DNA of 42,424 nucleotides, from the IMG/VR virus record IMGVR_UViG_3300010296_000017, positions 1 to 42,424 of that record; one strand, written 5' to 3'. Position numbers and translations under genes: made by a program. This document shows positions 1,310 to 22,773 of this stretch, in pieces. The stretch's first letter is position 1; each line of letters begins with the position of its first letter. The notes beneath the pieces were generated by a model. The model did not search any database. It was given only the letters and a program-made list of their open reading frames with translations, and was not told the DNA's origin. The stretch comes from a virus.

Positions 1310-4300
1310 ATGGCGACAGTCCAAGAGCCTCAGGACTTTACTGCGTTTGCTGACCGCTACTGGCAGGTCAGGGGCAGTGGCGGCCCTATTGGTGATGAGC
1401 AACTTCGTCCGCTGCTGGACGAGTTTGGCTTGCCGTACTGGTCTGGCATGGAGGCGGCGCTAGACGAGGGCGTCGGCAGGACCAAAGACTTTCGGACTGT
1501 TGTTGAAGAATCGGAGCTGGCTGATTACCTGCCGTTCTTCGCTGGGGCGGCTCAGGTTGACGAGCTTCTTCAGATCAGAAGCGCAGCGAATGCGGTAGCC
1601 GAGGGCACCGCTACGCAAGAGCAGGAAGATGTGGTTATCCGCTACATGGTGGATATGGCCACGCCTGGCACGTGGGGCGGCCAAGTTGCTTCGCTGCTGG
1701 TTGACATGCCTGCATTCATGGGTGAGTTTGCAGCTAGTGGCGGCGTTGCATCTTTGCTGAAAACGGGCGGCAAGAAGGTTGCGGGTAAGCTGCTTCGAGA
1801 GACCATTGACCAAGCGGCGCAAAAGCAGGCGGCCGGTGGCGTGATGAAATCGCTGGCCAAGCGGGGCGTCAACGTCGGTACTCACTTTGGCGTTCAGATG
1901 GGGCTTGGTGGAGTCGGCGGGCAGCGCATCATGGCCAGCACGCTACAGCGCACGCTGGGCCAGGCGGGCATGGTTTTGGATGAGAACCAAGCTGGCGAGC
2001 TCGAGGTGCTGATGAGCAGCACTCTGCCGCAGATCGAGGAGTCGCTCGACATTGGTATCACCGACTACGCCATTGAGGTGGCGTCCGAGATGAGCGGCGG
2101 CGCTATTGGCAAGGTCGTGCCTATCGACAAGCTGACCGGCATGGTGCTGCGAGGCATCCAGGCGCGTGCATTTGCCAAGGGAGCTCAAAAGTACGGCGTG
2201 GACAAGGCCATGAACTTCCTGGCCAAGTCTGGGTGGAACGGCCCAATGAACGAGGTCTTGGAGGAGGTAGCCGGCAACGCAATGCGTGCAGCTGCCCCGA
2301 ACCTCGAAGAGACTGCCGATGACATCATCCCGTCGTGGGAAGAGTTCACGGCAATGTACGTCGGCTTTGCGGTTCCGGGTCTGGCCGGCGGTGCTCTTGG
2401 GTTAGGGGGTGACTCAATGACCAGCGGGCCCGGCAAGCTGCCTAAGGGCGCAGCCCGATTTGAAACCGCCGAAGAGGCTGAGCAGGCCGGCCAGCGCATG
2501 GGCCTTGTCGAGCCTGTCGCATCGGAGTCGGCCGATGGCTTTGGCCTGCGGCGATACGCAGACGGACCCCTGGTAAGCGAGCAGGAGGTAAGTGCGCGCG
2601 TTCCGGCCCGGGCCCCGGCCCCCGACGCTGACGTGGACGCTGACGCTGAGCCAGGAACTGTAGATGCCGAGGTTGTAGATACTAAGGCGCCGCCCGCGGA
2701 AGAGCTCTCGGAGGAGGACGAAGACTTCCTGCTACAGCCGGAATACGAAGATTCGGATGTTCTGTACCAGCAGCTTGATGCTGGCGCGGAGGGTGAGTAT
2801 CGCCGGGAGCGCGCGGCCGTGGTCTTTGATGAAGCTGAGCGGTACGCATCGGCCTCGGGGGAGCGCGCATACGTTGTCACGGACCCAAGCAACAGGGCTC
2901 TAAACTACGCGAGTCGCCAGGAGGCAATCGACCTGGTGCAGTCTGGCCAGGGCAAAGTCCTGGCCGTGCTCGAGCCTAGCCGCGAAGCTGAGCCTGCGCG
3001 CACAATCCTTCGCGACGCCCAGCAGGTGTGGGGGGCTAACGCGACCATTGTTGAGCCGAATCTGGAGCGCGAAGACGTGCGCGCAGCGCAAGAGCTGGCT
3101 AAGCGCGCCGGCGTGCGGTTTGTGATGGTTGATCCCGGCGAGGGCGCTGAAGACGCTCCGCTGGGCGCCTCGGCTCGCGTTGGGACAATTATGGTGAACG
3201 CGCGCAACAAGCCGCCGGCCGACGAGATTGCCGCGCATGAGCTTGTGCATGAACTGCGCCGCAGCAACCCGGAGCTCTTTGACCAGCTTGTCGATGTCCT
3301 TCAGCGCACCGCCGGGGAGCGCATCGAAGAGGCGCGCGGCAGCCGGGATATGTCGGACGAAGAAGCGATAGCTCGGTACGCGGAGCCGCTCGCCAAGCTG
3401 ATGCGCCGAATGGGGACGCCACAGGGCCGTAAGCTGCTAAGGGACATTGCCCTTGAGCAACCGAGGCTGTTTGACAAGATTATTGACACTGTCCGCCGCA
3501 TCCTGGCCAAGATCGGCCTTGTGCAGTCTCCGGTTATGGAGCGCAAGCGGCTGCGCATGCAGGAGCAGCTGGCCGATCTGGGCGAGCGCGTCACGCAGGA
3601 AGATGTGCGCGCCGCGCGATTGCTGCACGACTCGCTGACCTTTATTGGCAAAGCGCGCCTAGCCGGTTTGCTGACGGGCGACGAGCAGGGCGAGGTGAAG
3701 CTGCGCGAGGCTTACCTGGAGGAAGATCCTGACCGCGCCTTACGCTATCGCGACGACGACATGCTGGGGCAGAGCTGGGCGGAAGACAAAGAGCGCAAGC
3801 TGATTCTTGCGGACGGCACCGAGATCCCGTTTCGCTACAGAGTCGTCAATGCCAGCGACCTGCTGCCTAGCCATGACGCACGCAGAGGGTTTAGGCAGAA
3901 CCCGGGCGGTGATAAAAACGAGCGCACGTATCACATTGAGAGCCAGTCAAAGGCGTCGCGCAAGAACGTCAGGGATATTGCCAGCGACCCGCAGCCGGAA
4001 CGCATCTTCAATACCGCGCCAGACCCCAACACCGGGCCGCCTATCGTGACCCTAGATGGGGTTGTGCTGGGCGGCAATGCGCGCACCATGGGCTTGCAGC
4101 TGCTGTACCACAATGCGTGGGAAAAGCAGGAGAACGTGGACGCCGCTGAACGCGTGGCACAAGCGGCGGTTCAGTTTGCCGCACGCGAGATGGGCGAAGA
4201 GGCCGAAGCTGTGGCTATTGAGCTGGAGCAACCCGTCATTGTTAGAGAGCTCCAGATCGCCACCATCCCCGGCGCGCTGTCGCGCGAACTAAACAAGGAT

Positions 4301-7300
4301 GCCGCGGCGCCGCGCACACCGTCTGTGGACGCCGTGTCTCGCGGCTCTAAGGTGTCGGAGCAGGCCGCGCAGATGATCGCCCAAACCATTGGCGAGGGCA
4401 CTCTGGGCGATGTCCTAAACAGTCGCTCCAAAACCGCGTCGATGCTTAGCGCGCTGGTCAAGTCCGGCGCCTTCGACGAGGCTGAAATTGAGTCACTCAT
4501 GGAGGGCCAGAGTGGCCTGCTGACTAAGGCCGGCCGCGAGCTGGTTGAAAAAACCATCATTGGCTCGCTTGTCACGGACGTGCAACGTCTGTCGGCTTTG
4601 CCTGCAAGTGCGCGAGGCAAGATGATTCGGTCGCTGCCGTCGCTGATGCGCCTGTCGGCAAGCTGGCCGCAGTTCAAGCATCACCTGGCGGCCATGTTCG
4701 ATGGGCTGGCCACGATGCGCGGGGCCGACACTAATCTGGCAACGGAGGTTGACCAGACTAGCCTAGAGGACGAGCCGTGGAAGCGCGACATGGTGGCCGT
4801 CGCGCTGCTAAGCGAATTCATGGGCCGGGGGCCCAAGTCCTGGAACGAATTTGCCAAGGACCTGGTGACGGCCGTTACCGAGGCCAACATGCAGCAGGGC
4901 GCCATGTTTGGCGAGCCTGTGGCGGCTGATCCGGTAGAGGCGCTGTTGAAGCTGGTTGGCGATACACCGATGGGGCGCCGGCTTGCGCAGGCCAGCAACT
5001 TTGACCCGACCGTTCAAATGCAAGAGGCCGAGGCGGCCCCGGAGGCGGCCCCGGAGGCGGAGGCCGAGGTTGACGCGCCTGCCGCCGAAGAGCCTGCTGC
5101 CGAAGAGTCCGTTGCCGCCGAACTGCCGCAGGTGCCGGCCAGAAAGCGGCGCTACTCGCCTGCCACTGAGCAAATGGCCGACGCGCTCAGGCAGCTCGCG
5201 CTGGAGCCGGAGTTGGTTGCCGGCAGGTCGTTTGGCCGCCTTGAAGATGCAGACATTGCATTCCTGGCTCGCCAGGCGGCTGCGGCCGTGGCTGAAGAGT
5301 GGGGCACGTCTGAGTTTGTGGAGTTCGCTACAGAGCTTGCCACAAAGCATTCTCAGATCGACTTCAACACGGCCATAGCTTTTATCCATGGCGTTGACGC
5401 CCTGGCCCGCTCTGCGGGATCGCAACTGCCTGGCTTTGATGTAAGCGGCACCATTGAGGCCATGCTGAGCTCGGTGGCTGTGGGGCGCGAGCGCTCTGAG
5501 CTCGAGACCGCTGGCCTGGTGGGCAACTACGTCAGGACCACGCTGCAAGCGGAAATGGAGTCCCGTCTCGGGGGCGAGCAGGAAGCCGATGCCGAGGCCC
5601 GCGAAGCGCCGGACCTTGCTTGGTTTGATGCTTCGCGCAAGAGCCCAGCGTTCTCGCAGCTAGGCGAGCTTGCGGACGAGCAAGATGGCGTTCGCAAAGG
5701 CGACGTGGTGGTGGTGCTTGACGGCACCCGCATGCGCATTGATCGGGCAAGCACGGTCAACCGTGACCGGGACGTTATGCGCTACGATAGCGGCGAAGGC
5801 CGCATCGAAGGCACGGAAGGCTCGTTTAGCCCTGGGAGCAAGCGGCCTGTGCGCCGCAACATGCAGCAGCCCGTGCTAGTTATTCCCAAGCGCTTTGTGG
5901 ACAACGACGCGTACCTTGCGCTGTCTACAGGCGACAAGCGGCCGGCTGTAGATACAAGCAGCCAGGAGGCGTACGAGCGCAGCGTGGACGACGCGATGAA
6001 CTTCATTGCAAACAACTTGCTGCGCGAACCGTCCAAGGCTCACCGCAAGGCCGACCGGGAAACTCTACTCAATCTGCGCAACGAGCTCGCTGGCCAGCAG
6101 GCCGCAGCCCCTGAGGCGGCTAAGCCGGCGGCAGACGCAAGCTACGAGCAGATTGAGCGCGAGTACCTGCAAAGCATTCGTGATGCGCTGGGCGTCGATG
6201 AGCAGCAGGCGGCCGTGCTGTCTTACCTAATGGATTCAATGGGCCTCGACCGCAGCACCATTGACTTTATGCGAGGCAGCACGCCAGACCCCCGCTTGCT
6301 CAACCAGCGAGTGTGGCATGGCTCAAGCGCGGCGTTTAGCAGGTTCGACACCGGGTTTATTGGCACCGGCGAAGGCGAGCAAGCCTATGGGTGGGGCCTG
6401 TATTTTGCGTCGCGCAAATCGGTTGCGGAATGGTATCGCGTACAGATTGCGGGTCGCGGAAAGGTAGATCAGCCGCACCTGCTTTTGCAGCAGCGCACCA
6501 GGAGCGACGAGCCTGGCGCAGTTGTTTATAACTATGAAGAGCTTCGCTTCCTCGGCCAGCGCATTCAGGACGCGTGGCGGGAGTGGTTCAGAGCCGCCAG
6601 CCAGTCGGAGACGGGCCCCCCTAGCGCAATGGAGCAGATGGATTGGCTCAACCGCGCGTTGAAGTCAATGCTTGCCGATGCGGAGGCTGAGCTTGCGCGG
6701 CAGCGAGCCGGCGGCCCGAACACGTCGCCAGTGCTTTTGCGCGCAGCCGAGAGAATCGCTGGCAGAATGCGCGATGTCGTCAACGGCACTAATGACGTTG
6801 GGTTTGAGGTGACGCTGGCTGGTCATAGAGGGCAACTGTACGAGGTCGAGCTCCATCCGGCCGAGAGCCAGTATTTGCTCTGGGAGGCAAACGCCTCAGG
6901 CCGTTTCTATCTCGGTGGTGGAAAACAGAGTCGCCGGGTGCAGACCGCGCTTCAGCCGATTGTCGAGCTTGTGTTTACAAGCCAGGGGCGTCGCGTGCCA
7001 CGCTACCTTAGTGGAGAAGAGTTGTACAAGGAGCTGGTCTCCTACTTTGAGCAGAGGCCGCTGCCCAAAGGCCAGTCTGCGCAAATGGCAGCGTCGCTCA
7101 AGCTACTTGAATCGGGTGTGCGCGGCATCAAATACGTAGACGGGGTAAGCCGGAAGAAAGTGGGCCCGCTCCACTACAACTACGTAGTTTTCGACGCGGC
7201 AGACACGCGAATGACGCGTTTCTTCCAGCAGGGCAACGAAGTGCAGGGGCAGGTTGAGTTGGCCCAGGATGGCCGCGCAATCATCACTGGCTTCGAATCT

Positions 7301-10300
7301 GCCAACTTCAGTACCGGCGTCCATGAGATTGCGCACGTAGCTCGCCGCCGCCTGGTCAACCGCGAGGTGCCAGCCAGCGAGCGCGAAGGCATTACGTCGC
7401 AGGACATCCTAGAGGCCGAAACGTGGTGCGGCGTCGAGGACGGCAACTGGACTGAAGAGGCCGAGGAAAGGTTTGCCCGCGGCTTCGAGAAGTACCTGAT
7501 TGACGGCAAGGCGCCGAACGCGCAGCTGCACGCGATGTTCCGCGTCATTGCCCAGTGGATGCGTCGGCTGTACGAGCATGTGCTGACCCGCACGGCCGGC
7601 ACGCCGTACGAGGTCAAGCTGACCCCCGAAATGACTCGCGTGTATGACGCTCTGGTGACGCGGGGCCAGTACACCGGCCCAGAACAGGAGGGCGAGGTTC
7701 ATGGCCCTGTCAAGGAGGTCGATGGAGTCAGGCCAGTTCGGTGGGTTGGAGGCAACGTGGATGTGGCGTACAACCGCCGCTACGACATTGTTCACCGCAC
7801 GTGGAACAAGGACCCGCAGAAACGTAACACGATCATCTACGTGTTCGACGTTGACCCGTCGCGCAACTACTCGCCGGCCGACGTGTATCGAATCGCCTAC
7901 ACCAGCGGCATGATCCCCAAGGGCGGTGGCAGCACAGGCGCCGAGGAGATTCAGACCCCGCACGGATTTTATGTCCGCCGGCAAAAAACCAACCGTGGGC
8001 TCAAGAACGATTGGGTGCTGAATCCTGAGTTCCAAGAGGAAGATGCGGCGACTGAGGCTGCCGCGCCGGACGCCGAGGGCCTGGCCGGAAGCGAGGCAGA
8101 CCCCCAGCCTGATGGCGGGCAGGATCTGAGTCGGTGGTTTGAGCGGCGAAGAAAGCAGCAGATTGATTTTCTGCGGCCGTTCATCGACGCCGTGGTTGAA
8201 GACTTCATCGGCACCTTGCCCGAAAAGTCTCGCGCCAGTGCCCGACAAGCGCTTAGCGGCACAACTTTCAGCAGCGACTTGGCCGTGGGTGATCGCGTTG
8301 TGGCTGCTGCGGCCTTTCGTGGCTACCAGTACGTAGACACGTACCCGGATGGGCCCGCCGATGCCCCGGCGCTTTACAGGGACGGGATGGTTGTTGCCGA
8401 CCGCAACAACTACACCGCGACGGGCATGAAGCTATTCGCCTACATTGCCAGGCAGCGCACCCGCGAGCTCGAGGAGGCCATTGCGGGCGCCCCTAGCTTC
8501 TGGCGCGAAGGGGCAATCGAGGTCGCGCAGCCGGGGTACAGGGTGGTTGGTCTAGTTGACCAAAAGACGCATGAGCTCCAGCAAGACGGAAGCTGGCTGG
8601 AGATTGACCCAGACGCTGAGTCCTACACGGGCCTAGAGCTTCCTGCGCGCCCTGAGGGCCTGCCTGACTGGCACCCGCCGCTAAACGAGCACGACGCGTT
8701 TGGCGATATGACCCGGCCCGCTGAGCCTGAAATGATCGGGCCGGTGATGCCGGAGGATGAACGCCGGGCTCTGGAAGCTGCGCAAATCCTGATTGAGCGC
8801 GAGCGCCGCAAGCGCCGTAAGCTGCCGCCGGGCGAGCAGTCAAACCTCTTCGGCCCTGGCGAACCCGTTGACCTCGACCCGCCTAGCGATTCTGGCGGCG
8901 ATCGTGGCTTGCAGCCGCCGGCTTCGTTTGAGGGCGGGCCCCGGCCCGGACCGGAGGACGTGGAGGGCGTGCGCCGCTCGTTTGCTTTGGGCGCGCAGCC
9001 CAGGGTCAAGCGCGCAAACGTCAGTGGCGACCCGAACGTGCGCAACTACGTGCGCGCCAGCGACGTGCAGATGGGCCGCAAAGGCGAGTACATGGCCAGC
9101 ATCAAGCAGGCCGAAAAAGACGCGACTCGCATGCTCGAGGAGATGGGGGAAGAAGCCTTTGTTGAAAACTTCCTGACCAGGGCCCGCGAGGGAGTGCTGC
9201 ACGATCAGGTGGAGTTCCTTGCAGCCCGACGCATTAGCGCCAACCTGATCAGAGATGCCCTGGGCATGGGGGGCACAGACAGGCATGCGCGTGCCATTGA
9301 GTTCATGTGGGCGTACCGTGCCGCGAGGGGCCAGGTGGCTCGTTCGCTTGGCATGGTGCGCGACGTGTTCCCTCGTACCGCACGCGAGCAGCTGGCCGAT
9401 GTCTTGGCCATGCCTAGCCAGCGAGTGCGCCGCCGGTTCCTGAACCTGGAAAAGAAGCGCCGCGAGCTGCGAGAGAAGGAGCGCGCACAGGCCAGCGAAG
9501 CCAGTCGCAAGCGCCTGCGAAAGGAGCTCGAGCGCATTGAGCGCCAGATCGACGCAGAGCTGAAGCGCGAGTCTGAGCGCATGCAGAAAGCGCTGGAGAA
9601 GCTGCAAGAAGATGGGTTGAACCCCGAGACCGTGATTGAATCCGACCTTATGGATCCCAACACGCGCGGCCGTATCGCCAAGGCTATTGCTGAGGCCAGG
9701 TCGAACAAGTGGGATTGGTTCTTGGCATACCAGTACAATGCAATGCTGTCGTTTGCCGGAACGCACGCGCGCAACATTGCCGGCAACACGCTAAACACTC
9801 TCCAAGAGCAGTTTGTGCAGCGTGGGGTTGAGGCGGGCATTGCCCGCGCCCTGCGGCTGTTTGCTCCTGGGAACTTTGAGGCGGCGCCGAAGTTTGGCGA
9901 GTTCAAGGTAATGGCCCAGATGCTGCCGGAGGCGTTTATGCAAGGCGCCCTGAACGGGTGGCTGGGCTACAAAAACAACGTCAGCGCCACGGCCCTGTAC
10001 TTCCAAGCCATGGGCATCGAGGTGCAGGACATGAGCCGTATCGAGCAGGACATTGCGCGGCAGGTGGGCAGCGGAAAGCTGCTGTACCTTGACTACCTGG
10101 GCACCCGCCTGCTGCAAGGCATGGATGACTGGGCCAAGACGTTCGTGGCTATCATCGAGATGCACGCCCGCTCGTATCGCGAGGCAGTCAACATGGGGCT
10201 CAAGAATCCCAAGGACATTGAGAAGCAAATGCGCATCTTCATGCTCGACGTGCAGCACCCGCTGCATCAAGAGGCGTGGACTGCGGCGCTCAAAACTGCG

Positions 10301-11641
10301 TTCCAGTTGCCGCCGGGCGAGTTCACTACCGGCTTGCTGAACCTGCGCAACAAGGCTGACTCAGCGTGGGATGTCCCGATGGGCACTCTCATGTTCCCGT
10401 TCGTGAACACGCCGACCCAAATCTTCCAAGCGGGCCTGCGCAAAATCCCGCCGTCCAAGCTGATTCAGATGGCTGTGCGAGCCGTGCGCACCGTCAAGGC
10501 TGCCCGAGCCGATGAAGGCGCCGAAGATGTCGCCAAGGGGCGCACCGTGTACACGGGCGCGGAAGGCCAGCGGCAGTTGGTTGAGGATCTGGCCGATTTG
10601 GTGATTGGTGTCGGCGTGTTCTGGACCGTCATTGCCCTACTTGCTGGAGACGACGACGACCCGCGCCCGAAGATTACTGGTTCGCTGAAGCCGTGGGGGT
10701 CAGAGCGGGAGCTCCAGTACCGCGCTGCGCCGGCAATGTCGGTGCGCTTTGGGGACAGTTACTACTCGTATGCCGGGCTCGAGCCCCTTGCCACGTATGC
10801 GGCGCCGGTCGTTGACGCAGCAGAGCGCTGGCTGGGTGCTGTAAATGGCGGAACTAAGGAGCAGATCCTTGCTGCCAACACTAACGTGCTCAACTCCATC
10901 GTCGGTCTGGTTCGAGACAAGACCTACCTCCAGGGCTTTGGCGAGCTGGTGGACTTGGTGCAGTCTGGAGGCAAGTCACAATCGCTTGCAGATTTCATGT
11001 CCGACACGTTCTTCACGCGAATGGTGCCCAACGTCATTCGCGGAACGGCCAGAGAGTCGGACGAGTACCTGCGCCTAAGCCGCACCGCAGAAAAGTCGCT
11101 GCTGGGCCGCACGCTCAACGTAGACAAGCTGTTGCCTGTGCCTCCGCGAGTTGCGCGCTACCTGGGCATTGACCCTGCGCCGCCCAAGCGGGATATCTGG
11201 GGCCGCCCCATTCCTCGAGGCGTGCAGATTGACTGGTCGTTTGGCGGGCTTGCCGGCCACCTGATGAAGGAGGCCGTGGGCCCCAAGAAGATGAACCCGG
11301 TGATGAAGGCCGACCTGGCCATCATGGCCTGGAACAGTATGGTGGAGCGCGGAGAGGCGATTGATCCCCGGACAGGGGACGTTGCAGAGCCGCTAAAGTT
11401 TGCTGGTAAGCGCGTCGGGCAGAACTGGTCGTCCGAAGAGGTTGACTTCGTAATGCGCGAAGGCGGCGGGCGGGCTCAGCGCGCTATCCAGGGGCTTGTT
11501 ATTCGAGACGTATCCAATCCCACGTGGTACGAAATGCAGGCGATTCGGAAGATACTGGATAAATCGTATGACGCTGCCATGAAGCAGGTGCGCGCGCAGC
11601 GCCGTGTGCGCAAGGCCCAGGAGCTCTCAACCACCAGGTAG
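1310..11641 (+). CDS. Giant polyvalent protein with protease, ParB-like and ADP-ribosyltransferase domains
   Basis: A single 3443-residue protein with several visible modules. HELVH at 643-647 fits the zincin motif HExxH. About 840-1000 resembles the DdrB/ParB-like domain of polyvalent proteins (VVNASDLLPSHD, then GPPIVTLDG and GGNARTMG). About 1668-1970 matches a phage ADP-ribosyltransferase domain (VWHGSS, YGWGLYFA at 1693-1700, closing with NYVVFD). A second zincin motif HEIAH is at 2005-2009, followed by a GFEKYLIDGKAPN segment typical of that family. About 2710-2770 is a strong coiled coil. About 2810-3050 has the NAMLSFAGTH and PFVNTPTQIF signatures seen near the end of such proteins, with a probable membrane segment near 3096-3115. 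In known families these proteins are packaged and delivered into the host with the DNA. That role and the targets are inferred here. Confidence 0.93.
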   Translation: MATVQEPQDFTAFADRYWQVRGSGGPIGDEQLRPLLDEFGLPYWSGMEAALDEGVGRTKDFRTVVEESELADYLPFFAGAAQVDELLQIRSAANAVAEGTATQEQEDVVIRYMVDMATPGTWGGQVASLLVDMPAFMGEFAASGGVASLLKTGGKKVAGKLLRETIDQAAQKQAAGGVMKSLAKRGVNVGTHFGVQMGLGGVGGQRIMASTLQRTLGQAGMVLDENQAGELEVLMSSTLPQIEESLDIGITDYAIEVASEMSGGAIGKVVPIDKLTGMVLRGIQARAFAKGAQKYGVDKAMNFLAKSGWNGPMNEVLEEVAGNAMRAAAPNLEETADDIIPSWEEFTAMYVGFAVPGLAGGALGLGGDSMTSGPGKLPKGAARFETAEEAEQAGQRMGLVEPVASESADGFGLRRYADGPLVSEQEVSARVPARAPAPDADVDADAEPGTVDAEVVDTKAPPAEELSEEDEDFLLQPEYEDSDVLYQQLDAGAEGEYRRERAAVVFDEAERYASASGERAYVVTDPSNRALNYASRQEAIDLVQSGQGKVLAVLEPSREAEPARTILRDAQQVWGANATIVEPNLEREDVRAAQELAKRAGVRFVMVDPGEGAEDAPLGASARVGTIMVNARNKPPADEIAAHELVHELRRSNPELFDQLVDVLQRTAGERIEEARGSRDMSDEEAIARYAEPLAKLMRRMGTPQGRKLLRDIALEQPRLFDKIIDTVRRILAKIGLVQSPVMERKRLRMQEQLADLGERVTQEDVRAARLLHDSLTFIGKARLAGLLTGDEQGEVKLREAYLEEDPDRALRYRDDDMLGQSWAEDKERKLILADGTEIPFRYRVVNASDLLPSHDARRGFRQNPGGDKNERTYHIESQSKASRKNVRDIASDPQPERIFNTAPDPNTGPPIVTLDGVVLGGNARTMGLQLLYHNAWEKQENVDAAERVAQAAVQFAAREMGEEAEAVAIELEQPVIVRELQIATIPGALSRELNKDAAAPRTPSVDAVSRGSKVSEQAAQMIAQTIGEGTLGDVLNSRSKTASMLSALVKSGAFDEAEIESLMEGQSGLLTKAGRELVEKTIIGSLVTDVQRLSALPASARGKMIRSLPSLMRLSASWPQFKHHLAAMFDGLATMRGADTNLATEVDQTSLEDEPWKRDMVAVALLSEFMGRGPKSWNEFAKDLVTAVTEANMQQGAMFGEPVAADPVEALLKLVGDTPMGRRLAQASNFDPTVQMQEAEAAPEAAPEAEAEVDAPAAEEPAAEESVAAELPQVPARKRRYSPATEQMADALRQLALEPELVAGRSFGRLEDADIAFLARQAAAAVAEEWGTSEFVEFATELATKHSQIDFNTAIAFIHGVDALARSAGSQLPGFDVSGTIEAMLSSVAVGRERSELETAGLVGNYVRTTLQAEMESRLGGEQEADAEAREAPDLAWFDASRKSPAFSQLGELADEQDGVRKGDVVVVLDGTRMRIDRASTVNRDRDVMRYDSGEGRIEGTEGSFSPGSKRPVRRNMQQPVLVIPKRFVDNDAYLALSTGDKRPAVDTSSQEAYERSVDDAMNFIANNLLREPSKAHRKADRETLLNLRNELAGQQAAAPEAAKPAADASYEQIEREYLQSIRDALGVDEQQAAVLSYLMDSMGLDRSTIDFMRGSTPDPRLLNQRVWHGSSAAFSRFDTGFIGTGEGEQAYGWGLYFASRKSVAEWYRVQIAGRGKVDQPHLLLQQRTRSDEPGAVVYNYEELRFLGQRIQDAWREWFRAASQSETGPPSAMEQMDWLNRALKSMLADAEAELARQRAGGPNTSPVLLRAAERIAGRMRDVVNGTNDVGFEVTLAGHRGQLYEVELHPAESQYLLWEANASGRFYLGGGKQSRRVQTALQPIVELVFTSQGRRVPRYLSGEELYKELVSYFEQRPLPKGQSAQMAASLKLLESGVRGIKYVDGVSRKKVGPLHYNYVVFDAADTRMTRFFQQGNEVQGQVELAQDGRAIITGFESANFSTGVHEIAHVARRRLVNREVPASEREGITSQDILEAETWCGVEDGNWTEEAEERFARGFEKYLIDGKAPNAQLHAMFRVIAQWMRRLYEHVLTRTAGTPYEVKLTPEMTRVYDALVTRGQYTGPEQEGEVHGPVKEVDGVRPVRWVGGNVDVAYNRRYDIVHRTWNKDPQKRNTIIYVFDVDPSRNYSPADVYRIAYTSGMIPKGGGSTGAEEIQTPHGFYVRRQKTNRGLKNDWVLNPEFQEEDAATEAAAPDAEGLAGSEADPQPDGGQDLSRWFERRRKQQIDFLRPFIDAVVEDFIGTLPEKSRASARQALSGTTFSSDLAVGDRVVAAAAFRGYQYVDTYPDGPADAPALYRDGMVVADRNNYTATGMKLFAYIARQRTRELEEAIAGAPSFWREGAIEVAQPGYRVVGLVDQKTHELQQDGSWLEIDPDAESYTGLELPARPEGLPDWHPPLNEHDAFGDMTRPAEPEMIGPVMPEDERRALEAAQILIERERRKRRKLPPGEQSNLFGPGEPVDLDPPSDSGGDRGLQPPASFEGGPRPGPEDVEGVRRSFALGAQPRVKRANVSGDPNVRNYVRASDVQMGRKGEYMASIKQAEKDATRMLEEMGEEAFVENFLTRAREGVLHDQVEFLAARRISANLIRDALGMGGTDRHARAIEFMWAYRAARGQVARSLGMVRDVFPRTAREQLADVLAMPSQRVRRRFLNLEKKRRELREKERAQASEASRKRLRKELERIERQIDAELKRESERMQKALEKLQEDGLNPETVIESDLMDPNTRGRIAKAIAEARSNKWDWFLAYQYNAMLSFAGTHARNIAGNTLNTLQEQFVQRGVEAGIARALRLFAPGNFEAAPKFGEFKVMAQMLPEAFMQGALNGWLGYKNNVSATALYFQAMGIEVQDMSRIEQDIARQVGSGKLLYLDYLGTRLLQGMDDWAKTFVAIIEMHARSYREAVNMGLKNPKDIEKQMRIFMLDVQHPLHQEAWTAALKTAFQLPPGEFTTGLLNLRNKADSAWDVPMGTLMFPFVNTPTQIFQAGLRKIPPSKLIQMAVRAVRTVKAARADEGAEDVAKGRTVYTGAEGQRQLVEDLADLVIGVGVFWTVIALLAGDDDDPRPKITGSLKPWGSERELQYRAAPAMSVRFGDSYYSYAGLEPLATYAAPVVDAAERWLGAVNGGTKEQILAANTNVLNSIVGLVRDKTYLQGFGELVDLVQSGGKSQSLADFMSDTFFTRMVPNVIRGTARESDEYLRLSRTAEKSLLGRTLNVDKLLPVPPRVARYLGIDPAPPKRDIWGRPIPRGVQIDWSFGGLAGHLMKEAVGPKKMNPVMKADLAIMAWNSMVERGEAIDPRTGDVAEPLKFAGKRVGQNWSSEEVDFVMREGGGRAQRAIQGLVIRDVSNPTWYEMQAIRKILDKSYDAAMKQVRAQRRVRKAQELSTTR

Positions 11642-18324: not shown

Positions 18325-18650
18325 ACACGCCGACCCCGAAGGGGGTTCACCTGCTGGACTTTGCCCCTTGGGGACAGAACTGCCTGGTCGAGGTGATGGA
18401 GCTCAACCTGCAAACCGACGGAGGCATCTTCCTGGCTCCGCGCAAGGTCGATGAAGACGACCCTCTTGGCCTGTATCGAGCCGGGGATCCGCCGATGATC
18501 GGCCAGGTGGTAGGCGTTGGCCCTGACGTGAAAGATGCAAAGGTTGGCTGGATGGTGCTGTACGTCAGCAACTCCGGTGTCCCGTTTACCGCGGATAACC
18601 GCGAATTCGTGCTGCTCGAGGAGCCCTGCTTCCTGGCCGTTCAGCAATGA
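18303..18650 (+). CDS. GroES-like phage co-chaperonin
   Basis: 115 residues, slightly longer than bacterial GroES (about 97). CLVEVMELNLQTDGGIFLAP (27-46) matches the GroES strand and mobile loop, with Ile42-Phe43-Leu44 at the place of the Ile-Val-Leu tripeptide that contacts GroEL. GQVVGVGP (67-74), KVGWMVLY (80-87) and EFVLLEEPCFLAV (101-113) follow the remaining beta strands in order. As with T4 gp31, it probably caps the host GroEL to fold phage proteins such as the capsid, which is inference. A 12-residue insert (about 49-62) follows the mobile loop. Its stop overlaps the sulfatase start as ATGA. Confidence 0.85.
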   Translation: METAKLMNTPTPKGVHLLDFAPWGQNCLVEVMELNLQTDGGIFLAPRKVDEDDPLGLYRAGDPPMIGQVVGVGPDVKDAKVGWMVLYVSNSGVPFTADNREFVLLEEPCFLAVQQ

Positions 18651-19771
18651 AGCCTACGCTGGTCATAGTTCTGGATGACGTTGGGCCGGCCAACCTGGCC
18701 CAAGACTTCTGTGTGCCTAGCCGCCTGACGCCCGAGCTGGCCGACGGCGTGCTGAAGCAGGCCGTGCGTCACCAGCTATGGACGATGCCGTCGTGCAGCG
18801 CAACGCGCGCGGCTTTGTGGACTCGCCGTTACCCCAGCTCTAATGGCATCGGAACGATCGTGCGCCACAACGACGACCTGGGACTGGACCCTAACCTGGC
18901 GGCTTTGCCCGACGTTGGGCCGGGCCGCCGCGTTTACTACGGAAAGCACCATCTGTGCCCGCAGCAGATGATCAACCTGCATCCAGATGAGATGGGCTGG
19001 TCACTATTCCACGGGCACGCGTCTAACCTGGCGGCCGGCGACCAGGGCGGCTACTACGACTGGCTCGAGACGCGGGAGGGCGAGACTCACATGCAGACGC
19101 AGTACGCTCCGACCGTGATGACGGCCGCAGCGCTCGAGACCATCGCCACCAGCCGCGCGACTCTGGTTGTGGTAGGCATGGCCCTGATCCACAAGCCGTA
19201 TCACTATCCGCCCTCCTCCAGCTTCAATGTCGATCAGCCGGAGGCAATGATGCGGCGCCTAGACCAAGATGCGGCGCAGCTTGTCGAAATGGCGCTGTCG
19301 TTTGATTGGCGGGTTGTGATGTTCAGCGACAACGGCGCCACGTCCGACCTCGGCGGCGGCAAGGGGTCGCTGTACCAAGAGGGCATCTGCACAGACCTCT
19401 ACGTTTGGAACCACGACGCCGAGAGCTCAGCGCTCGACGTTGTAGACGTAGGCACGCTGCTAGACGGGCAGCTGTCTGACGACTGGGATGCGCAGCCCAT
19501 TGGCCGGCGACGGTTCCACTTCGCTGAGAAGTTTAGCCCGAACCACAGGGGCCGGCCCGATGAGCCGCCGCCGGGCGCGCACTCCTACGCCATTGCCCGA
19601 GATGAGTGGAAGCTGATCTCCTGGGGCGAAAACCACAAGCCAATAGGCGCGCAGGCCGTGGAGCTCTTCAACCTGGAGGAGGACCCGCGCGAGCAGGTGA
19701 ACCAGGCCGTGCACAACAAGCAGGTGGCGCGCGATCTGATCGAGCTGGCGCACGACGAGGTCCTGCTATAA
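18647..19771 (+). CDS. Sulfatase-family hydrolase (arylsulfatase-like)
   Basis: 374 residues, short for the family (about 450-550). All sulfatase landmarks are in order: Asp10-Asp11 in VLDDVG, the formylglycine motif Cys50-Ser-Ala-Thr-Arg54 followed by AALWTRRYPSSNGIG, the second signature YYGKHHL (Lys100, His102), IHKPYHYP (His182, Lys183, His186), Asp228-Asn-Gly in MFSDNGA, and Lys239. The active site therefore appears intact. The motif is C-x-A-x-R and not the commoner C-x-P-x-R. Activity would need host maturation of Cys50 to formylglycine, because no maturase gene is seen. No signal peptide is visible, so the enzyme is cytoplasmic or virion-bound. The substrate is unknown; a phosphodiesterase-like activity of the same fold is the alternative. 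Confidence 0.88.
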   Translation: MKPTLVIVLDDVGPANLAQDFCVPSRLTPELADGVLKQAVRHQLWTMPSCSATRAALWTRRYPSSNGIGTIVRHNDDLGLDPNLAALPDVGPGRRVYYGKHHLCPQQMINLHPDEMGWSLFHGHASNLAAGDQGGYYDWLETREGETHMQTQYAPTVMTAAALETIATSRATLVVVGMALIHKPYHYPPSSSFNVDQPEAMMRRLDQDAAQLVEMALSFDWRVVMFSDNGATSDLGGGKGSLYQEGICTDLYVWNHDAESSALDVVDVGTLLDGQLSDDWDAQPIGRRRFHFAEKFSPNHRGRPDEPPPGAHSYAIARDEWKLISWGENHKPIGAQAVELFNLEEDPREQVNQAVHNKQVARDLIELAHDEVLL

Positions 19772-20640: not shown

Positions 20641-21309
20641 CTACCGCTCGACCTCGAAGCGGCTGCACTGCCACCACCTGTGGTTTGTAAGCAGGTCTTG
20701 CGCCGTCTCTAGCGCAATCTGGCAGGCCCCAAACGTCGCCAAGTCCACTCCCTCGAGCGGCGTACGGACAATGGCCGGCAGATCCCTGGCGACCCACAAG
20801 GGCGGCAACTGGCCGAGCTTGGCGTACGCGTGGGCAATATCCCAGCTCAAGTCCATCCCGCCGCCGGTGAGCGCTAGATAGTGCGCGTCCCCGACCGGAT
20901 CATCGGGCGCCGTCACCAGGCACACCGAAGTATCAATTAGAGCGCACTGGGCCTTACGCTCATCCATATCGAAGAGCTCGATCGGGTAGCGGTAGTTCAT
21001 GGCCGGGCGCCAGCTATCGTCTTTCAGGGCCAGCTCATCGGCCAATGCTTCTAGGTCGTGCTTGTGCATGTCGCGCAGCTCCTCGAGCGGCGCATCGTTA
21101 GACCGTTCGTAGATCCAATCTGCCAGGCGGCCCGGCCACATGCTTTCAAAGTCCGGCAAGATCTGCGCGTACTCGCCCTGCCGCTCGAGCGCGTGCCAGT
21201 CAGTCCAGATTGAGTGCGACCAGAGGTTTGTAGCGTGCAGGCGTCCGAACAGCTCGTGGCACTTGTTGCGCGCGTCTTGCAGCTTGACCGCGTCGGTTTG
21301 GGTTTCCAT
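20641..21309 (-). CDS. Hypothetical protein, 222 aa
   Basis: Starts at ATG 21309, just downstream of hammerhead copy A, so after cleavage this gene would lie on an mRNA with a short structured leader. The protein is acidic, Trp- and His-rich, with helical segments (LEELRDMHKHDLEALADELAL) and a GGGMDLSWDIAHAYAKLG stretch. Its centre (YLALTGGGMDLSWDIAHAY) and end (NHRWWQCSRFEVER) look like a compact alpha-beta domain. No family recognised. The gene is the longest in this early block. Confidence 0.75.
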   Translation of the reverse strand: METQTDAVKLQDARNKCHELFGRLHATNLWSHSIWTDWHALERQGEYAQILPDFESMWPGRLADWIYERSNDAPLEELRDMHKHDLEALADELALKDDSWRPAMNYRYPIELFDMDERKAQCALIDTSVCLVTAPDDPVGDAHYLALTGGGMDLSWDIAHAYAKLGQLPPLWVARDLPAIVRTPLEGVDLATFGACQIALETAQDLLTNHRWWQCSRFEVER

Positions 21310-21324
21310 GTTTCGTCATCCGTT

Positions 21325-21379
21325 GGGGTTTCGGCCTTGCCTGGGCCTCGTCAGGGGAGCGCAGCACGCTCTCGACCCC
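21325..21379 (-). ncRNA. Hammerhead ribozyme, type III, copy A
   Basis: On the minus strand the order is: stem III GGGG, then U and cleavage base C (21374), stem I (21373-21355, 6 pairs with one A-C mismatch and a 5-nt loop), core CUGACGA (21354-21348), stem II GGCC/GGCC with a 7-nt loop, core GAAA (21332-21329), and stem III CCCC (21328-21325). Every invariant core base is present and the cleavage triplet is GUC. Stems I and II are closed and stem III is open, which defines type III. It would cut the transcript between the 83-aa gene and the 222-aa gene. Confidence 0.9.
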
Positions 21380-21389
21380 TTGCGGGGTC
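21374..21389 (-). promoter_or_regulatory. GCAA-tetraloop hairpin competing with hammerhead A stem III
   Basis: On the minus strand GACCCC-GCAA-GGGGUC is a perfect 6-bp hairpin with a GNRA tetraloop. Its 3' arm is the 5' strand of ribozyme stem III plus the cleavage site. Its first bases are the last two bases of the UGA stop codon of the 83-aa gene. Confidence 0.65.
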
Positions 21390-21639
21390 AGGTGTCCGGG
21401 TACTTGTTCAGGCGGACGGCCTCCGCCGGCCTCGTTACCGTTTTGGCCAGGCGCGGCGCGTCCACGCTGGCGAGCTCACTATCCACGAACGGCACCAAGT
21501 GTATATCCGCCGCCGCGGCCTGTAGCGCCTCTGCCAGCGCGCCCGCTCCGGCCACGTTCAGGTAGAACGTGGGCAGGTTTGGCACGCTCACAGCTACCGC
21601 ATCCCGGAACCGGTGCACGCGCCAGGCCCTAAAACCCAT
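21388..21639 (-). CDS. Hypothetical protein, 83 aa
   Basis: ATG at 21639 with an upstream G-rich ribosome binding site, overlapping the preceding gene by 11 bp. The protein starts MGFRAWRVHRF and continues with strands (AVAVSVPNLPTFYLNV) and an Ala-rich helix. Small soluble alpha-beta protein, no family recognised. Its stop codon runs into the hammerhead element. Confidence 0.65.
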   Translation of the reverse strand: MGFRAWRVHRFRDAVAVSVPNLPTFYLNVAGAGALAEALQAAAADIHLVPFVDSELASVDAPRLAKTVTRPAEAVRLNKYPDT

Positions 21640-22006
21640 GGCTGATAAACCCCCGCCAGCCGTTGGGCGCGTTCTCCAGCCAATCCGCGAGGGCATCATA
21701 CCCAGCGAGCCAAGCTTCAATCCGGCCGTGGATGGTGTAATCGGCCACGGCCTCCCATGCGTCCACACCTGGCGGCAGAATGATCCGGCACCATTCATGT
21801 TGGGCGCCGGCTTTCGTTCGGTAGAACCAGCCGAGCTCCGCGCAGCCGACAAACGATATCCGGTCGAGGGCCTTTGCGGCGCTCTGCATCTTTTCGGGCG
21901 CGTCCCCGCCGTCGTCTACCTCGATAAACCCATCGGGGCCGCTGCTCTTGAACATATACTCAACTAGCGCCTGAACGTGCCAGGGAATGTCCTTGTGGCT
22001 ACGCAT
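21629..22006 (-). CDS. Hypothetical protein, 125 aa
   Basis: I chose ATG 22006 (MRSHKDIPWHVQ), which overlaps the previous stop by 8 bp. The frame is open another 28 codons but that part is Arg/Pro-rich, as expected of out-of-frame sequence. The protein begins with a helical, Trp-containing segment and contains an acidic strand-turn (DGFIEVDDGGD), two CysTrp-type aromatic patches (ELGWFYRT, HEWCRIILP), and a C-terminal helix rich in Ala and Trp. No family recognised. Confidence 0.65.
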   Translation of the reverse strand: MRSHKDIPWHVQALVEYMFKSSGPDGFIEVDDGGDAPEKMQSAAKALDRISFVGCAELGWFYRTKAGAQHEWCRIILPPGVDAWEAVADYTIHGRIEAWLAGYDALADWLENAPNGWRGFISHGF

Positions 22007-22415
22007 TGGACGCGGCCTCCGGCTGCTCGGCGTCTGCCAGGGCCTCGGCCTCGGCAAACTTGGCCGCGGCCACCTCCTGCAATCGTTCAAAATATGCGAC
22101 CTGAAGGCCGGCCAGCTCGTATGCGGCGAGCTCGAGCGCCTGCCCTAGCTCCCCGGCCAGGTCGGCAATCATGTCGTGAAACAGGGCCTGGCGCTCGTAG
22201 TGGCTGCTGTTGAGCTCTTCGCAGTCGGCGTCCGGCTCGACGTTGTGCACGGTGCCCAGCTCGTCCACGTATCCGCCCTCGCCGATGCGGTGCACCTGCC
22301 AGCTATCGATAGACGTGAAGGCGCGGCCCCCAACGGTCCACGCGTTGCGGAGCGCTCCCGATATGGTTCTGGCGCGTCCCCAGGTGTGGGGCGCGATAAC
22401 GATGTAATGGTGCAT
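21999..22415 (-). CDS. Hypothetical protein, 138 aa, downstream of hammerhead B
   Basis: ATG 22415 with GAGG about 9 bp upstream. The N-terminal half is a beta-rich domain (HYIVIAPHTWG, then FTSIDSWQVHRIGEGGYVDELG). The C-terminal half is a long Ala/Glu/Leu-rich helix with heptad-like spacing, probably a coiled coil. After ribozyme cleavage this gene would be first on the new transcript. No family recognised. Confidence 0.7.
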   Translation of the reverse strand: MHHYIVIAPHTWGRARTISGALRNAWTVGGRAFTSIDSWQVHRIGEGGYVDELGTVHNVEPDADCEELNSSHYERQALFHDMIADLAGELGQALELAAYELAGLQVAYFERLQEVAAAKFAEAEALADAEQPEAASNA

Positions 22416-22452
22416 CAAGGGTCATCCTCTCGGCCTGGTAGTGTTCTGACGT

Positions 22453-22504
22453 GGCGTTTCGGCCGTCTCGGCCTCGTCAGCGGGGCAGACCAGCCCCGGA
22501 CGCC
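22453..22504 (-). ncRNA. Hammerhead ribozyme, type III, copy B
   Basis: On the minus strand: stem III GGCG (22504-22501), U, cleavage base C (22499), stem I CGGGGC/GCCCCG with loop UGGUCU (22498-22481), core CUGACGA (22480-22474), stem II GGCCG/CGGCC with loop AGA (22473-22461), core GAAA (22460-22457) and stem III CGCC (22456-22453). All stems are perfect and all invariant core residues are present, with a GUC cleavage triplet. It lies between the 86-aa zinc-ribbon gene and the 138-aa gene. Confidence 0.94.
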
Positions 22505-22514
22505 TTGCGGCGTC
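22499..22514 (-). promoter_or_regulatory. GCAA-tetraloop hairpin competing with hammerhead B stem III
   Basis: On the minus strand GACGCC-GCAA-GGCGUC is a perfect 6-bp hairpin. Like the one at copy A it starts within the UGA stop codon of the upstream gene and takes up the 5' strand of stem III and the cleavage site. Confidence 0.65.
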
Positions 22515-22773
22515 ACGGCTCCGCCTCCGCCTCCGCCGCCCGGTCCAGCCGCTCCTCTCGAGCTCGTATGTCTTCGGCAATCTGGCGAGCTAGGCCGCGG
22601 GCCAGCTTATCGGCGAGCTCGCGCAGCCTGGCAGCAGCCTCGGGGGTGCAGTCGGGAGAGCTGGCGACCTCGCTTACGTGGCGGAGCTCGCACGGCCGGC
22701 AGAGCTGACTCGGGCTATCGTAGTCGGCCAAGCTGGCGCCGCAGCTGCCGCAAACACTTTCGGGGTTGTTCAT
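22513..22773 (-). CDS. Zinc-ribbon-like small protein, 86 aa
   Basis: ATG 22773, overlapping the previous stop as ATGA. CGSC near residues 8-11 and CRPC near 25-28 form two Cys pairs with the spacing of a zinc ribbon. The rest is a charged, Arg/Glu/Ala-rich helix, probably a coiled coil. It is the second of two adjacent small Cys-pair proteins, and its stop codon begins the hairpin of hammerhead B. Likely a nucleic-acid or protein-binding early protein. Confidence 0.75.
   Translation of the reverse strand: MNNPESVCGSCGASLADYDSPSQLCRPCELRHVSEVASSPDCTPEAAARLRELADKLARGLARQIAEDIRAREERLDRAAEAEAEP

Follow-up and report, generated by a model that had tools for sequence, protein, structure and literature searches.

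Background

What would a self-cleaving ribozyme do between two genes of one viral gene block? The question is raised by the minus strand of virus record IMGVR_UViG_3300010296_000017, analysed here over its 42,424 nucleotides (the window), in which the original prediction, made from the letters of the sequence, placed a complete type III hammerhead that would split one transcript into two. The role of phage hammerheads has been called an open question (PMC6155905).

Results and discussion

A complete type III hammerhead and its score

Read directly on the minus strand from 22504 to 22453, the RNA of the element (copy B) consists of GGCGUC, CGGGGC, UGGUCU, GCCCCG, CUGACGA, GGCCG, AGA, CGGCC, GAAA and CGCC, in this order. 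An RF00008 match and a strict motif search both identify it as a type III hammerhead with the following parts:

22453..22504, minus strand: type III hammerhead copy B
22504-22500/22457-22453, minus strand: stem III, 5 bp including U16.1-A15.1
22498-22493/22486-22481, minus strand: stem I, 6 bp, CGGGGC/GCCCCG
22480-22474, minus strand: core CUGACGA
22473-22469/22465-22461, minus strand: stem II, 5 bp, or 4 bp with loop GAGAC
22460-22457, minus strand: GAAA

The hammerhead is complete, as had been claimed for it: GUC, CUGACGA and GAAA follow in order and the three stems contain no mismatch, stem III being open and stems I and II closed. Since the last base of GUC is C22499, cleavage is predicted between 22499 and 22498, which puts the predicted 5′-OH on nucleotide 22498, the position given originally. 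The two loops contain a 4-bp complement (GUCU/AGAC), a candidate loop I-loop II contact as judged by complementarity alone; a contact of this type is linked to fast cleavage in the available part of Perreault et al. 2011 (PMC3088659). Just 3′ of copy B (window 22440-22480, minus strand), the sequence CGUCAG perfectly complements CUGACG of the core, and its CGUCA could also pair with the upstream UGACG, an arrangement absent at copy A, the second element described below. This pairing is possibly a further switch and possibly chance.

A covariance-model search had been proposed as a check, and its outcome is divided. RF00008 matches copy B significantly over the full model (38.9 bits; E 6e-6 in a 5.5-kb scan with all 4227 Rfam families, E 1.1e-8 as a single family over the whole record), but the score falls under the Rfam gathering score of 48.5 bits, and a search at gathering threshold returned no match. 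This gathering score is a database convention rather than a defining property of hammerheads. Among 12 loci with clean type III hammerheads on other viral contigs none reached it, and 11 RF00008 matches across six such loci scored 37-48 bits. Because phage type III elements in this range miss the cut-off, the cut-off is uninformative for phage sequences, and pipelines relying on it would miss clean phage type III hammerheads, as in the tested loci.

A second copy in the same gene block

Another hammerhead lies on the same strand, 1.1 kb away and downstream of copy B:

21325..21379, minus strand: type III hammerhead copy A, RF00008 30.1 bits

Its core elements CUGACGA, GAAA and GUC are all present, its stems III, I and II measure 5, 6 and 4 bp with one A-C mismatch in stem I, away from the core, and cleavage is predicted between 21374 and 21373. 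Loops I and II offer 3-bp options only, again by complementarity alone. The RF00008 match has an E of 0.0018 with all Rfam families over 5.5 kb and of 3.4e-6 as a single family over the record, where nothing beyond copies A and B matched the model. The motif search found one strict and two relaxed type III motifs in the real window and none of either kind in 150 simulated windows of matched trinucleotide composition. Copy A is a real hammerhead too, and both copies are predicted from their sequences to cleave themselves, which would leave 2′,3′-cyclic phosphate and 5′-OH ends.

Each copy sits between a stop and a start codon, flanked by these genes from the open reading frame (ORF) analysis:

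22513..22773, minus strand: 86-aa gene with CxxC motifs, upstream of copy B
21999..22415, minus strand: 138-aa gene downstream of copy B (139 aa if it starts at TTG 22418)
21388..21639, minus strand: gene of about 83 aa upstream of copy A, start uncertain, its TGA at a hairpin foot
20641..21309, minus strand: 222-aa gene downstream of copy A, its ATG 15 nt past the element

In leftward order the genes and ribozymes read 79-56-86 aa, copy B, 138-125-83 aa, copy A, 222-131 aa. Within the triplets 79-56-86 and 138-125-83 each gene abuts or overlaps its neighbour, and both ribozymes occupy gaps. The next start after copy B, TTG 22418 or ATG 22415, is about 35-38 nt beyond the element and is accompanied by a Shine-Dalgarno-like GAGAGG. 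Sequence, RF00008 match and ORF analysis agree that copy B lies in the gap between two genes of a single leftward block, as originally described. We infer that one transcript spans the leftward genes; the operon, originally described as early, is only putatively so, and a promoter scan found no sigma-70-like promoter.

The genes adjacent to the ribozymes are without known function: the 86-aa gene has no Pfam or PHROG match and no relatives of the 222-aa protein were found, while the 131-aa gene, last in the leftward block, matches PF12843. The record also encodes a terminase large subunit, a Bet/RecT-like annealing protein and an exonuclease, and its terminase shares about 34% identity with its counterparts in Streptomyces and Thermobifida phages. 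Terminase relatives were found on contigs L388 (a 100% identical fragment) and L389 (a 67% sister); both contigs stop short of the ribozyme operon, and no close relative spanning it was found. L016, a contig from the same sample as L388, was considered as kin and rejected as an unrelated phage. On the plus strand, a single 3443-aa open reading frame occupies window positions 1310-11641, and a sulfatase-family protein (PF00884, barely over the cut-off) is encoded at 18647-19771, between leftward gene blocks.

A hairpin on the stop codon shares a strand with the ribozyme

Copies A and B each open, at the UGA of the upstream gene, with a perfect hairpin of the form UGAC(S)CC-GCAA-GG(S)GUC, a feature that the original prediction missed at both sites:

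22499..22514, minus strand: copy B GNRA hairpin GACGCC-GCAA-GGCGUC (sequence and folding energies)
21374..21389, minus strand: copy A GNRA hairpin GACCCC-GCAA-GGGGUC (sequence; layout as in copy B)

Both hairpins have 6 bp and a GCAA loop. In copy B the 5′ arm begins inside the UGA stop of the 86-aa gene (22515-22513, a few nucleotides before stem III) and the 3′ arm (22504-22499) comprises the 5′ strand of stem III and the cleavage triplet; in copy A the hairpin foot lies at the UGA stop 21390-21388. Because the 3′ arm is at once stem III strand and GUC, hairpin and ribozyme are mutually exclusive before cleavage. Nearest-neighbour energies, in which tertiary contacts are uncounted, place the hairpin ahead of the ribozyme before cleavage by 8.5 kcal/mol in copy B and 4.0 kcal/mol in copy A, a balance that could make cleavage slow. 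On the 5′ cleavage product the hairpin has a predicted energy of -10.4 (B) or -11.2 (A) kcal/mol, and the upstream product would end flush with it. The base beside GUC differs on all three strands jointly, being C/G/G in copy B, G/C/C in copy A and U/A/A in phage L247 (IMGVR_UViG_3300008012_000004); both pairings, hairpin and stem III, have therefore survived divergence.

Could the two copies be inactive relics, with slow or no cleavage? The mismatch in copy A, the competing fold and the scores below the Rfam gathering threshold would agree with decay, but copy B is flawless, hairpin and stem III are preserved in both copies despite their differing sequences, and other clean phage hammerheads score below the threshold as well. 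We consider loss of function quite unlikely.

The exact TGACNCC-GCAA module occurred on no viral contig besides this one. Looser overlap patterns on viral contigs retrieved L242, L247 and L100, while an overlap-pattern scan of genome contigs returned matches that the stem check revealed to be false only. The UGA of the upstream ORF stands at the hairpin foot in copies A and B, in L242 and in the two type III elements of L247; L100 also has a TGA at the hairpin foot, but two codons past the upstream ORF's own stop.

This layout invites a second reading, that of a translation-gated ribozyme, in which the stop-codon hairpin hides GUC until a terminating ribosome opens it and later caps the released mRNA. 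The nascent hairpin would form first, masking GUC and the stem III strand; a ribosome at the UGA would then cover the 5′ arm and the loop, and the freed 3′ arm would build stem III. The recurrent in-frame UGA agrees with such a sequence of events, as do the joint base changes beside GUC in B, A and L247. When the 5′ arm is masked, prediction puts the ribozyme fold at the energy minimum, or no more than 0.2 kcal/mol from it, in copy A (0.2), L247, L242 and L100, and no more than 2.2 kcal/mol from it in copy B. However, GAC is the obligatory start of any hairpin containing GUC, and a U in front of it yields UGA cheaply. The UGA layout is confined to three phages and L100, two of which (L242 and L247) were found through a pattern that selects for the overlap hairpin. 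In L247 and L100, furthermore, the hairpin and ribozyme folds are predicted to be about equally stable, so the block would be leaky. Gating by translation is doubtful in our estimation. If it were true, the operon would be cut only downstream of genes under translation, and the overlapping stop-codon hairpin adds a possible natural ribozyme switch.

Sharing of a strand is not clearly enriched as a general feature of the type III class. Among the type III matches listed, strand-sharing hairpins of at least 5 bp number 8 against 5.5 expected, and those of at least 6 bp number 5 against 1.6 expected, two of the five coming from the overlap-selecting pattern.

Upstream hairpins in viral type III and type I hammerheads

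Viral contigs were scanned with core patterns, each scan giving at least 120 matches; these are samples, not a census. The survey sets were drawn with patterns that combined a GC-paired stem II with GAAAC, type I and type III elements were recognised by script, and clusters share less than 15% of their 8-mers with one another. Among the matches listed, 43 of 72 type III clusters (60%) have a hairpin with 5 or more bp whose end lies 0-9 nt ahead of stem III, compared with 14% at random positions of the same loci and 16% in shuffles. Type I clusters among the matches listed have a hairpin upstream of stem I in 13 of 114 cases (11%; controls 7-11%), a difference between the types with a Fisher p of 5e-12. 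A replication used an independent stem II pattern and analysed only clusters unlike the first set; among the matches listed it gave 23/32 (72%) for type III against 2/33 (6%) for type I (p 2.5e-8; controls 8-11%). Altogether, an adjacent or overlapping hairpin is found in 74 of the 106 type III clusters among the matches listed.

Adjacent hairpins are most often flush with stem III, and the 3′ overhang predicted after cleavage has a median of 6 nt (both for type III clusters among the matches listed). Downstream of the ribozyme, hairpins are depleted, occurring in 1 of 72 type III clusters among the matches listed against 15% in the control, as expected for a ribosome-binding site. A stop codon within 60 nt upstream combined with an ATG within 45 nt downstream characterises 59% of type III clusters among the matches listed and 5% of random positions. 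The sequence counts suggest that hairpins systematically accompany type III hammerheads, which may be a clue to the use that phages make of these ribozymes.

Two other explanations of the hairpins meet their evidence here. The upstream hairpin could insulate the folding of the open stem III or stack on it, and would then be unrelated to RNA ends; the flush junctions that prevail among the matches listed are compatible with stacking. The open stem I of type I elements is equally exposed, yet shows no hairpin enrichment among the matches listed, and the hairpins of the window compete with stem III instead of assisting it, which makes insulation unlikely. An intrinsic transcription terminator, to which the hammerhead match would be secondary, is suggested by a G+C-rich hairpin directly after a stop codon. 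We rejected this reading as very improbable: no U-tract follows either window hairpin, neither appears in the output of the terminator scan, and the 8 nt after the hairpins of type III clusters among the matches listed mostly contain 1-3 T.

Several loci of the survey deserve separate mention. The upstream hairpins of many type III hammerheads share GUGUCUUCAAAGACAC (L075, L107, L278, L288, L319, L341 and others), a recurring cassette whose flanking genes differ. A DUF805b RNA near the L047 hammerhead was considered as the identity of the upstream hairpin and rejected, being located elsewhere. L272 (G001:C1:3500-9500), part of a 41.3-kb phage contig, has five hammerhead matches at about 4309-7596 of its record on the minus strand: two type III with overlap hairpins and three type I-like with closed stem III, within about 3.3 kb of one strand. 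In Rhizobium phage RHEph01 (L275, JX483873.1) an unannotated hammerhead-like element at 663-711 lies under the minus-strand hypothetical CDS gp002, which may be spurious. Roseobacter phage CRP-125 (L276, OR420743.1) carries an unannotated type III hammerhead around locus position 1481, within the annotated start of gp49, and the true start of gp49 is probably the ATG right after the ribozyme.

Probable operon splitting with capped 3′ ends

The reading that we favour, and consider probable, is protein-free splitting of the operon by copies A and B, with hairpin-capped 3′ ends on the upstream products; for copy B, splitting one transcript in two is the most likely role to judge from its sequence context. 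The two ribozymes would cut the leftward polycistronic mRNA into blocks encoding [79-56-86 aa], [138-125-83 aa] and [222-131 aa]. After each cut the hairpin would form on the upstream fragment and give its new 3′ end a flush GNRA hairpin, which should be a poor loading site for 3′-5′ exonucleases, while the downstream fragment would start with the stem I hairpin and a 5′-OH. Refolding of the hairpin on the stem III strand should also push cleavage forward by blocking religation.

Splitting with capped ends would also account for the difference between the two types. A cleaved type I hammerhead would keep its closed stem III as a hairpin on the 3′ end of the upstream fragment, whereas a cleaved type III would leave a single strand there. 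Type III, with its open stem III, would therefore need an added hairpin, and the upstream hairpin would repair the deficit; the window copies, by reusing the stem III strand, would be the most compact version of such a cap. An enrichment of upstream hairpins at type III but not at type I elements is the pattern to be expected were the 3′ terminus of the upstream product of importance. Hairpins stabilise upstream mRNA at terminators (PMC11696848), and by analogy the hairpins described here may stabilise the upstream mRNA. Through this pattern the purpose of hammerheads becomes testable, by comparing how long the upstream mRNA lasts when the hairpin is present and when it is absent.

Comparison with known systems

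Clustered hammerheads flanking prophage genes have been described by Perreault et al. 2011 (PMC3088659), whose examples, in the available part of that paper, include the A. tumefaciens ardA triple, C. scindens and A. caulinodans; cleavage was reported in vitro and, in the case of A. tumefaciens, also in E. coli, and mRNA processing was proposed. Like copies A and B, these clusters place several hammerheads around genes or short blocks of one operon. With such precedents (PMC3088659, part available), and with the number of core-pattern matches in every viral scan, the original description of the site as "not a routine feature" is not supported; the intergenic location alone is not new, since hammerheads in phage operons and the processing idea were known by 2011. 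Unlike here, no systematic upstream hairpin of type III elements, link to a stop codon or shared strand is described in the available part of that paper (PMC3088659). More widely, a literature search that stopped short of the 2010-2012 papers on prokaryotic hammerheads found no mention of an upstream hairpin of type III elements or of its overlap with a stop codon.

The hammerhead of haloviruses HF1/HF2 (HHphage) also lies just upstream of a phage gene start, at 13 nt, and a mapped transcript 5′ end falls within three nucleotides of its cleavage site; unlike the window copies it is a variant with an altered core, and an upstream hairpin is not discussed for it (PMC3088659, in its available part).

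Phage L247 comes close to the window in layout. Each of its two type III elements is overlapped by a stop-codon hairpin (GACACC-UCCG-GGUGUC) and has a stem I almost identical to that of copy B, and its operon carries further, type I-like hammerhead candidates; its two competing folds, as noted above, are nearly balanced, unlike those of the window copies. No protein similarity was found between the 10-kb stretch of L247 that was compared and the genes of the window.

In T7, RNase III cuts the early mRNA of the phage operon into units with stable hairpins at their 3′ ends. T7 thus uses a protein enzyme of the host, whereas in the virus studied here the cut would come from the RNA itself.
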